This document shows, one piece after another, positions 8,804 to 12,817 of a stretch of 34,033 nucleotides of DNA. Position 1 is the stretch's first letter. Every line of letters starts with the position of its first letter. Source of the stretch: a virus. Location of the stretch: the IMG/VR virus record IMGVR_UViG_3300050131_000236, positions 1 to 34,033 of that record; one strand, written 5' to 3'. Made by a program: the position numbers and the translations under genes. The notes beneath the pieces were generated by a model that had not been told where the DNA came from, ran no database searches, and saw only the letters and a list, made by a program, of their open reading frames with translations.

Positions 8804-11800
8804 TCAGCGTTTCCCGCTCACAATCTCATCCCAAACGGACTGAGGTTCCTTCTCCTCGAAGGGAACCAGGCCTTTCGTTTTACTGTAGCGCGTGCCTTCC
8901 GGAGCCACGTGCTGCGACATCGGGCCGAACAGCGAGAGCATGCGCTCCGACCAACGATAGGTATCCGAGTCGTCGCCGGCCGACGTCTTGTAGGCGCTCC
9001 GGACGACGATCGGTATCGGCGAAATGTCGCTGAGCAAAGCCCCCACACTGCGCACCGTGTTGGGAATGAACCCTAAAGACTTCGGCGCGATCTCTTGCCC
9101 TAAGTCGTTCCGGCCGGTCATGGTGTGGATTCCCAGCTTGGTCAGCGGCGCCGCCTTGGATCCCAGAAACACGCCGGTCCCCACGAACGGGCCGTGATCT
9201 TCGATCTTGCTGCCCAGGCTGACCGCGTCGCCGACCGAGCCCCGCCATACTACGTTTTGATAAATGTCGCGGCCCTCTTTGTCTTTGCCCAGGTAAACCT
9301 GGAACGGCCGCGGCGACATCCGCCCCGAAAACAACAGGCTCAGCATCTGATTCTCAACCAACCCCTGGACGATCTGCTTGGTCCAGAACGCCCGCGACAG
9401 CCGCGCCTGCACGGATTCCTTCGTTATCGCGCCGCTGAGCGGGGCTCCGCCGAATTCTTTTCGAGAGAGCGGCGCGTCAAACGCGTATTTCCCGAGCGCC
9501 ACGTTAGACCCCGACCAGTCCGGCGCGAGTAAGAGGAAGCGGCCGACCTCGAGCGCCATACGCCCGATGCCCATATTTTCCCAGTGCAGCCCCCCGAACA
9601 CTCCGTTCACGTAGCTCGCGATGCCCTTCTTCGCCTCGGCGAGCTGGTCCGGCGCGGCCATGGGATTGTCTCGCATCCACGCGTTACGGTGGACGGCAAA
9701 GCTCACCACCTTGAATCGCCGCTGCACGTTGTCGAAGGTCAACCGCGTGATATCGTCCGCCGCCGCCAGCATCTGCTTCGATCCGGGGATGTAGCCGCGG
9801 ATCACCTCACCGCGCGTCGGGATCGTTCCGGGCCGCAAACTGCGATAGGCGTCCATTGTGCGCCCCTGAATCGACGTGCTTCCTCCGGAGGCAATCAGGT
9901 CGCGCTCGTCCACCAGGAACCCCGGACTTTCGCGCTGCGCCTTGAGCGCACGCACCATCTCCGACACTCCGATGTCGGCTTTCGCCATCACGTTCTCGGT
10001 CAGTAGGTGGAAACCCGACAGTCCCAAGATGGCTTCCTTCAGGCCCCGCTGCAGCGTGCGGACTTTGGCGAACCCTGGCAGCTTGGCCATGTAATCCGGG
10101 TCCGTGATCGGGCTCAAAGCCTTGTCGATAAACTCCGGCACATACAGCCCCATCGTCCCCACCTGGATCTCCGGCAATCCGGTCTCCGGATCCATGCTCC
10201 CCGCCACGGGATACCCGACGTTCTTCTTAAACTCCTCACTATGCTGTGCCAGCTGAACCCAACCGTCAGGAACGTGTTTCCCGTCGCCCCATTTCCCCAG
10301 GCCGGAATCGGCCAGGTGGGCTTCCAGCAGATGCGTGGCGCGCGCTCGCGCAAAGTCCTCGGCATGGATCACGAAAGCCGCCGAGGCATCGAGTGTTTTG
10401 GGGATCAGCCCGTCCGCCACTGCGTGCACCATCGTCGGATACTGGTCGGCGCGCCGCTGCCCGAAGCCGAAGTATTTGCCGATCTGCCCCTGCTTGCGCC
10501 CGGTCAGCGACGGCAGTTTGGCAACTTCGCCCTCCCCCTTCGGATTGATCAAATGAGGTAGATACTCGTACGATTGCCATCGCGAGGCGAGCCACCCGCC
10601 CTTGATCCCTTCCTGCAGGCTCTTCTCGGCAATGTTCGTATACAAGCGATCGGCCTTCGCCTCGTTTGGCGTAATGCCGCCCGTGAGCATCCGCAACGCA
10701 TGCTCCATCACCGGACGCAGGCGGTCCAGCCGCGCCATGGCATTGCTCACGCCGCCATCGGCTTCCTGCAGGTATGGGTGGCTGCCGTCAATGAACTGCT
10801 GTAACTCCCGAGGCTTGGCCTTGAACTCGCGCATGATCCCCACCGCCTCGCGGTCTTGCAGCTTCGGCAGCACGGTGCGTGTGACGATGTCCAGCGCCTG
10901 GTTTGCCCGCGCGGCCCAGAGGTCTCGCTCGGCGGTGAAGTAGGAGCGCACAGCCTCGCCGGCCTTCTTCTCCGCCGGGCTTGCCTGCGCCGCCTTCGCC
11001 GCTTCCAGCGCCGCGTTGCGTGCCAACCGGAGTCGATCTCCCTCGGCCTTCGTTTGACGGAACAACGGTTCCAGAGCGCCGAGTCCGGTGCCGAAATACA
11101 CCCCATCGTCGCCGGTAGAAACCTCGGACGGCCGCGCATCGACTTCACCGCGCTCGGCCGGCGGCGCACCACTCACTTGACTGGGTACAGGCTCACCTGG
11201 TGAGTCACTCCCCGCCACTTCCGCCGGCACCGCCCCGTTGGCGTTGGCGTCCGTCTCCCCGTGCCGCGCGAAGTAGATGCCTTCCTTGTCGGCCGCGGCG
11301 ACGTCCTCCACCTTCCCCGTGCGTGGATCCAGGCGCATCATCCCGCCTGGCTGGGTCTGCCACTCCGACGTGAGCACCCCCGGATCTAGGCTCCGGTCTC
11401 CGGGCATGCCCTTCGCCACCCACGCGCGCACCGCCTGCACGTCCCGCCCGCTGGTGACGATGAGCGTCTTCTTCCCCGGCTTCCATCCCGCGATCGCGTC
11501 CTGCACCCCGCCGATCAGCCGGCCGCTCCACTCCGCCGGCTTCTCTCCAGGCGACCCTGAGAACTTGCCTACCCCCGGGATCGGCTCGTCCGGCCGCGTG
11601 CGCAGATGTTCGTTGACGGCCGCAATCCGCTCCGGGGTGACCCGCTCGCCCTCGTGCTCGCCCATGTGCATCGGGTCGAATGCCGGGCTGCTCTTCACCT
11701 CGCCGGCCTGCGTGCTGGTCCGCGCGTAAGCCTGCGCGGTCTCTCTGTGCCGGTCCTTCGTCCCGCTCCGGATCTCGTCGAACTGTCCGGCGGTCCGCGC

Positions 11801-12817
11801 CGCGGCTTCCGCCGCTTGCCGCTTGCCGTCGGCGTTCAGCTTGACGTTCCAGTCACCGCGGAAGTACTCGCCGCTGTTGCCGCCCTCTACGGCCGCCGCG
11901 GGCGCGCCGGCGGCGGCTGGGGCAGCGGGTGCGACGGCGGCCGGTTGGTCGCCGTGTTGAGCCGGTCCAGCAGGCTGCCCTTGGGCTGCTGCTGGCTGCT
12001 CCGGTTGGGTGGTTTGCGGTTGAGTTTCGGCTTTTTGGGGAACATTCGTTTTTTCTCCCTTCACTGCACTGCGTGCCGCCAGGCCGGCCATCCCGGTGCC
12101 CAGCGCCATCCGGGTGAGCGTCTGCCTCACCATCGGCCAATCTTCCTTGTTCCACGCCTCGCGCAGCGCGGGGTGTTGCTTGTAGGCGTCGTGCAACATC
12201 TGCCCCGAGAAGCCGGCTGAGACTAGGCGCGACACCAGCCCTTTGCCGAGCTGCTTCTCCAGCGTGCCCAGGCCGCCCGACCCCACCATCAGCAGCAGAT
12301 TCTCCGGCGTGGTCAGACTGCTCGCGAACTCCGCGGCGCCGCGCGCCACACCGTGGCTGTTCGGATCGAGCGCCGATTCGAAGCGCAGCACCGGAGTACT
12401 CGGATCTTCCTTGCGAGACTCCGCCGTCTCGGTACTGATGCCCAGTGCCCGGCCGATCTGGCCCTCGCGCACCGGAGCGAACATGCGCTCCAGCAGGCCC
12501 GGGTGCGTCGCCTCGATCGTCGCGTTTATGGAAGGATTCGGTTGCTGGGTTGGCGGCGCCTGGGGCCGCGTGGCCATGTCTGCCATCACCCGCCCCAAGT
12601 CGGTGGCCTCTTGTACGACCTGGTCGGGATGGGGCAGCGTCTGGGATAGTTTCTGCGGCGTCGATGGAGCCGGTGGGACAGACGATCGTTTCCCGTCGTC
12701 TGTCATCCCGCCGGCATGGAATGACTGCATGAAGCTATCCGGCGTCAGTCCTTTGGTAGGGCCGTCCGCCTGGCTCGCCATGAAGCTGTCGGGCGTGAGC
12801 TGTTGTGGATCGGCCAT
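8804..12817 (-). CDS. Large polyvalent virion-type protein with permuted histidine-phosphatase domain
   Basis: 1337 residues. The N-terminus repeats LTPDSFM twice (7-13 and 24-30). Residues 100-250 are mostly helical, and 255-312 are a Gln/Pro/Ala linker. Residues 316-528 match the histidine-phosphatase family but in rotated order. FRGDWNVKLNADGKRQA comes first, then DRHRETA (second Arg, 356), MGEHEGE, RPDEPIPG, LIVTSGRDVQAVRAW and GGMMRLDP, and the usual N-terminal IYFARHGETDAN comes last (RHG at 518-520). The second catalytic His (VTH in relatives) is Ser456, so activity is doubtful. The remaining ~750 residues are helical and lack motifs I know. They resemble very large phage polyvalent or internal virion proteins ejected with DNA. 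It starts one base after the upstream stop and ends the late operon. Confidence 0.75.
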   Translation of the reverse strand: MADPQQLTPDSFMASQADGPTKGLTPDSFMQSFHAGGMTDDGKRSSVPPAPSTPQKLSQTLPHPDQVVQEATDLGRVMADMATRPQAPPTQQPNPSINATIEATHPGLLERMFAPVREGQIGRALGISTETAESRKEDPSTPVLRFESALDPNSHGVARGAAEFASSLTTPENLLLMVGSGGLGTLEKQLGKGLVSRLVSAGFSGQMLHDAYKQHPALREAWNKEDWPMVRQTLTRMALGTGMAGLAARSAVKGEKTNVPQKAETQPQTTQPEQPAAAQGQPAGPAQHGDQPAAVAPAAPAAAGAPAAAVEGGNSGEYFRGDWNVKLNADGKRQAAEAAARTAGQFDEIRSGTKDRHRETAQAYARTSTQAGEVKSSPAFDPMHMGEHEGERVTPERIAAVNEHLRTRPDEPIPGVGKFSGSPGEKPAEWSGRLIGGVQDAIAGWKPGKKTLIVTSGRDVQAVRAWVAKGMPGDRSLDPGVLTSEWQTQPGGMMRLDPRTGKVEDVAAADKEGIYFARHGETDANANGAVPAEVAGSDSPGEPVPSQVSGAPPAERGEVDARPSEVSTGDDGVYFGTGLGALEPLFRQTKAEGDRLRLARNAALEAAKAAQASPAEKKAGEAVRSYFTAERDLWAARANQALDIVTRTVLPKLQDREAVGIMREFKAKPRELQQFIDGSHPYLQEADGGVSNAMARLDRLRPVMEHALRMLTGGITPNEAKADRLYTNIAEKSLQEGIKGGWLASRWQSYEYLPHLINPKGEGEVAKLPSLTGRKQGQIGKYFGFGQRRADQYPTMVHAVADGLIPKTLDASAAFVIHAEDFARARATHLLEAHLADSGLGKWGDGKHVPDGWVQLAQHSEEFKKNVGYPVAGSMDPETGLPEIQVGTMGLYVPEFIDKALSPITDPDYMAKLPGFAKVRTLQRGLKEAILGLSGFHLLTENVMAKADIGVSEMVRALKAQRESPGFLVDERDLIASGGSTSIQGRTMDAYRSLRPGTIPTRGEVIRGYIPGSKQMLAAADDITRLTFDNVQRRFKVVSFAVHRNAWMRDNPMAAPDQLAEAKKGIASYVNGVFGGLHWENMGIGRMALEVGRFLLLAPDWSGSNVALGKYAFDAPLSRKEFGGAPLSGAITKESVQARLSRAFWTKQIVQGLVENQMLSLLFSGRMSPRPFQVYLGKDKEGRDIYQNVVWRGSVGDAVSLGSKIEDHGPFVGTGVFLGSKAAPLTKLGIHTMTGRNDLGQEIAPKSLGFIPNTVRSVGALLSDISPIPIVVRSAYKTSAGDDSDTYRWSERMLSLFGPMSQHVAPEGTRYSKTKGLVPFEEKEPQSVWDEIVSGKR

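Follow-up and report, generated by a model that had tools for sequence, protein, structure and literature searches.

Histidine phosphatases are among the commonest enzyme folds. In the window, a viral contig of 34,033 nucleotides (IMG/VR record IMGVR_UViG_3300050131_000236) with SU10-type adaptors, tail-fibre and virion-like proteins, an open reading frame encodes a giant protein of 1337 amino acids (P0001). The initial annotation recognized the motifs of this fold in P0001 in an unusual order, the first strand with the RHG motif following the remainder of the domain instead of preceding it. The question raised by this locus was whether the domain is a true circular permutation, whether its pocket could still be catalytic, and what such a domain may do in a phage protein of this kind. 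The features discussed are collected in Table 1.

Table 1. Features of P0001 and neighbouring genes, with positions in the window (aa, amino acids of P0001 unless stated otherwise)
Feature	Position	Strand	Basis
Giant virion/polyvalent-type protein P0001, 1337 aa	8804..12817	-	Open reading frame
Histidine-phosphatase body, aa 314-504, canonical profile positions 12-188	11306..11878	-	PF00300 and HMM built here
Displaced strand 1, aa 514-529 (IYFARHGETDAN...), canonical profile positions 1-16	11231..11278	-	PF00300, HMM and strand-1 matrix
Arg356, second pocket Arg (DRHRETA)	11750..11752	-	Invariant in permuted members covering the site
Glu389, GxxEG motif	11651..11653	-	Invariant in permuted members wherever covered
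Ser456, in place of the second catalytic His	11450..11452	-	Alignment of permuted members
Conserved C-terminal region, aa 574-1337	8807..11098	-	Identity to L056 and 14 loci
N-terminal short motif LTPDSFM, twice (aa 7-13 and aa 24-30)	12728..12799	-	Read from the sequence
Two genes directly upstream of the giant gene, 485 and 171 aa	12819..14792	-	tblastn synteny
Virion/internal-virion-like protein further upstream, 1597 aa	15774..20567	-	PHROG 3287 and 511, weak

All motifs named in the initial annotation were found in frame at the positions it gave, namely YFRGDWN (318-324), RHRETAQ (356-362, with R356), MGEHEGE (385-391), VTSGRD (454-459, with S456) and GGMMRLDP (491-498). The piece IYFARHGETDAN occupies amino acids 514-525 (window 11243-11278) and contains the RHG nucleophile motif as ARHGETDAN (517-525), here moved to the domain end. 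The Pfam profile PF00300 matched amino acids 314-468 as profile positions 12-159 with an E value of 2.4e-14 and a score of 53.9 bits against a curated cut-off of 21.7, which identifies the body as a homologue of branch 1 of the histidine phosphatases. The RHG piece alone matched positions 1-16 of the same profile with an E value of 0.078 in a search of 24,736 Pfam models. When it was moved to the front, the PF00300 score rose from 50.2 to 66.7 bits, and a scrambled piece at the same place gave 53.2 bits. A matrix built from canonical phosphatase strand-1 segments only peaked at amino acid 514 with 40.9 bits, compared with at most 17.5 in 3,000 shuffles and at most 4.3 in relatives lacking the phosphatase domain. 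With an HMM built in this analysis, which had the window among its rows, amino acids 314-504 corresponded to positions 12-188 (E 1.4e-45) and amino acids 514-529 to positions 1-16 (i-E 3.2e-5). Each half occurs once in P0001, and together they make up profile positions 1-188, exactly one domain, with strand 1 after the body and not in the canonical N-to-C order.

Searches for close relatives with the window domain or with the whole of P0001 yielded nothing in viral contigs or phages, and relatives in viral contigs surfaced only once the domain stood in canonical order in the alignment. A search with the domain rearranged in this way gave L014 to L018. In these, the tblastn alignments were confined to the body, and the RHG motif was located downstream of it within the same giant reading frame. 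Further scans added L053, L055 and L056, and L072, L073 and L077/L081 were found through the C-terminal part of the giant protein. The phage matches that were read through had the canonical order; plasmid matches were classified by their annotation only, as histidine phosphatase family proteins.

The order seen in the window, termed type I, is present in 11 members (window, L014, L015, L016, L017, L018, L055, L056, L072, L073 and L077). In their alignment, the RH(G) segment comes after the last strand together with a short hydrophobic strand, and a PG turn usually precedes them. In most members, a short linker joins the last strand to strand 1. The group also has an extra S..PGES stretch. In L055 the permuted domain lies in a short reading frame of at most about 290 amino acids and not in a giant protein. 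The contig end cuts the body of L017, and between this body and strand 1 lies an inserted ADP-ribosyltransferase domain (ADPrib_exo_Tox; L017:3-3770). A twelfth locus, L053, has amino acids 820-927 matching profile positions 74-177, followed by amino acids 936-1002 matching positions 1-65. This phosphatase (L053:7959-8591), in a 2049-amino-acid protein of another phage, is the single example found that is permuted at a different point; type I is cut after strand 1 and type II (L053) after the helix with the second Arg. Because ten more loci of uncultured phages share the type I order and L053 is cut elsewhere, the sequences indicate that the domain in P0001 is a genuine circular permutation and that a very common enzyme fold has here undergone a recurring natural rearrangement. 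The initial reading as a permutation rather than a deletion is thus borne out by the order kept in 11 members, by the other cut in L053 and by the confident structural model described below.

The permutation is unlikely to be an assembly artefact, since a separate contig (L007) was 99.97% identical to the window over 11.4 kb, with three mismatches, none of them inside the phosphatase domain. The full-length P0001 reading frame is likewise intact in this independent contig (L007/L008). L007 comes from a Bryobacterales (Acidobacteriota) MAG from palsa and may share its sampling programme with the window, so it counts against misassembly and not for wide spread. A search of bacterial genomes related to the MAG gave seven matches, L061 to L063 among them, of which L058 to L060 were read through; a permuted domain was seen there only in phage contigs binned into MAGs. 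L007 and L058 are phage contigs of this kind, and their binning is either a weak hint at the host or an artefact.

All 11 permuted members have the His that corresponds to the nucleophile, and every member covering the site of the second pocket Arg (Arg356) has that residue. Five members (L014, L015, L017, L018 and L077) retain the second His; L016 has Asn at this site, and the window, L055, L056, L072 and L073 have Ser. Of the members with Ser, all but the window copy also lack the Arg of RHG, and L077 has RHS for RHG. The full His/Arg/Arg/His pocket is found in L014, L015 and L018, whose domains are, judged from these residues, probably active phosphatases. In the window copy, the His and Arg of RHG, Arg356 and Glu389 are intact, and the substitution of the second His by Ser456 noted initially was confirmed. 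As the window copy lacks the second His and is grouped with copies lacking the RHG Arg, the most likely reading is a descendant that is slow or only binds phosphate, with little or no activity, in agreement with the earlier suggestion of a binding, repurposed or slow enzyme. It is possible, at lower probability, that the domain is still a working phosphatase in which Ser456 or another residue substitutes for the second His. The four intact pocket residues and the open reading frame in two contigs are compatible with such an enzyme, but all four other members with Ser at this site are those without the RHG Arg.

The giant gene comes after the genes for the 485- and 171-amino-acid proteins and that for the 1597-amino-acid virion-like protein, relatives of which occur in L072, L073, L055 and L049. 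By tblastn, this order was largely kept in relatives, and the P0001 gene closes a conserved virion-gene cluster. The C-terminal part of P0001 is 41% identical to L056 over 781 aligned columns and has relatives in 14 loci at 34-61% identity. In relatives of the C-terminal 750 or so amino acids, ddrB-ParB, Zeta toxin, FtsK-gamma or PBECR1 domains replace the phosphatase or are added to it. P0001 resembles the phage polyvalent proteins of Iyer et al. 2017 (PMC5512222), giant multi-domain proteins that are likewise encoded beside virion genes and whose ddrB-ParB, PBECR1 and Zeta toxin domains are found in the relatives of P0001. It differs from them in that the phosphatase is its only recognizable effector domain; as no second known one was found, the label polyvalent rests on the relatives, which carry several. 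With this restriction, the gene order and the exchange with known polyvalent-protein domains support the earlier designation as a virion-type polyvalent protein, and P0001 is probably packed in the virus particle.

Most of the giant proteins carry a short N-terminal motif two or three times (window, L014, L015, L053, L068, L069, L071 to L074, L077 and L080). The repeats are near-identical within a protein and differ between proteins (LTPDSFM, DLGGGWTVA, VDGMRITGPG, LPxGFTxDA etc.), and L014 repeats its own motif just before the phosphatase domain. The motif is possibly a packaging or processing tag. In L015 (4522-12126), a 2H phosphoesterase/Acb1-like domain directly follows the RHG segment of the permuted phosphatase, a pairing in which a two-step attack on a phosphodiester signal is possible.

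Phosphatase domains were also seen on portal proteins. In L024, L030 and L035, a canonical phosphatase is fused to the C-terminus of a portal protein (Portal_Mu and Phage_portal; Mu-type and other). The order is canonical and the carrier protein a different one, but these fusions give independent support to phosphatases on virion proteins as a wider theme. In L033, L038 to L040, L044, L045 and L047, a canonical phosphatase domain interrupts a protein of about 1000 amino acids near positions 175-245; the carriers looked portal-like by eye, and the two tested (L038 and L044) had no other Pfam match. The domain of stand-alone phage phosphatases (L019, L020, L041 and others) is related and includes the RHG motif and the second Arg, but these are small, single-domain proteins of canonical order.

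Taken as a whole, these data are probably best explained by a permuted branch-1 histidine phosphatase serving as an exchangeable cassette inside a giant polyvalent, probably virion-carried phage protein. P0001 would enter the host together with the DNA, and its phosphatase domain would, at an early stage of infection, remove or bind a phosphate of a host molecule in the service of counter-defence or takeover. The delivered cassette would, in the window phage, most likely have been weakened to a slow or phosphate-binding form. The domain could instead be a scaffold or assembly module of a virion protein, its phosphatase ancestry being irrelevant, and the decay of the pocket in several members and the canonical domains on portal proteins would suit such a role. 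We consider this unlikely, as L014, L015 and L018 retain the complete pocket and related giants without the phosphatase domain carry effector domains instead.

Structure prediction, proposed initially as a check, gave a confident fold in which the RHG segment forms a strand. AF2, run on five permuted sequences, gave a mean pLDDT of 86.4 and a pTM of 0.86, and the RHG segment formed a strand (204-209) within a block whose pLDDT was 93. Of the 50 best Foldseek matches in the PDB (best E value 6e-7), almost all carry the name of a histidine phosphatase or a phosphoglycerate mutase, and two sets of entries are named only 'mycobacterial hydrolase'. Together with the pTM, these matches point to a phosphoglycerate-mutase-like fold for the permuted domain. 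The TM score was about 0.6 (0.60) in an order-dependent alignment; as Foldseek aligns in sequence order, the displaced strand cannot be superposed. The RHG strand is predicted to fold back into the central sheet, which would give the domain the overall fold of an ordinary histidine phosphatase. The L053 model was of moderate quality (pLDDT 74, pTM 0.72), and a Foldseek search with it returned no phosphatase match. As the L053 domain is cut in the middle and the program is order-dependent, this empty search was expected and was not counted as support. The whole ADP-ribosyltransferase domain in L017 means that the connection between body and strand can be very long, which would be in keeping with completion of the fold in trans by a domain swap between copies. 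The short linker in most members and the confident single-chain AF2 fold make this improbable compared with folding within one chain.

The origin of the permutation was examined with trees. In the first tree, type I was one group with a support of 66/79. With more members, the best topology needed two changes; a single type I clade was not rejected (p-AU 0.11), and adding L053 to that clade was marginal (p 0.049). The trees are therefore compatible with one or several origins. L002, which is the same contig as L024, and L030 lay near the permuted group. As two cut points exist, a route by tandem duplication and trimming is plausible; no relic of a duplication was present in the flanks of the window domain, where 19.5% (protein) and 19.3% (DNA) of shuffles scored equally well. 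Permutation classically arises by tandem duplication and later loss, which could leave two remnants side by side, but that P0001 holds a truncated phosphatase and an unrelated chance RHGET or the start of a lost second domain is extremely unlikely, given that 11 members keep the order with the strand always present, none has a second body after the strand or a strand ahead of the body, and the flanks show no duplication. Two separate truncated domains were also sought in the homologues and were not found.

The permuted domain shares with branch 1 of the histidine phosphatases (PF00300; CobC, PhoE, dPGM, TIGAR) a near-whole profile, the RHG motif, the second Arg, the Glu of GxxEG and, in the AF2 and Foldseek results, the predicted fold. 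It differs in the C-terminal strand 1, the Ser for the second His in P0001, and the S..PGES stretch of the permuted group. No natural permuted histidine phosphatase or phosphoglycerate mutase was described in the full-text literature searched, subscription titles being outside its scope, and the main text of Iyer et al. 2017 (PMC5512222) mentions neither a phosphatase nor a permutation.

For profile searches that depend on sequence order, the consequence is that such permuted domains are reported as truncated. With pockets that range from complete to decayed, the members allow the transition from enzyme to pseudo-enzyme to be tested directly. The phosphatase joins the candidate toolkit of early infection, its permuted forms adjoining ADP-ribosyltransferase, 2H/Acb1-like and nuclease domains. 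More tentatively, phages may have re-cut the phosphatase fold repeatedly, at more than one point, into cassettes for long injected proteins, and the derived branch may consist of phosphate-binding pseudo-enzymes that counter phosphate-based signalling of the host.
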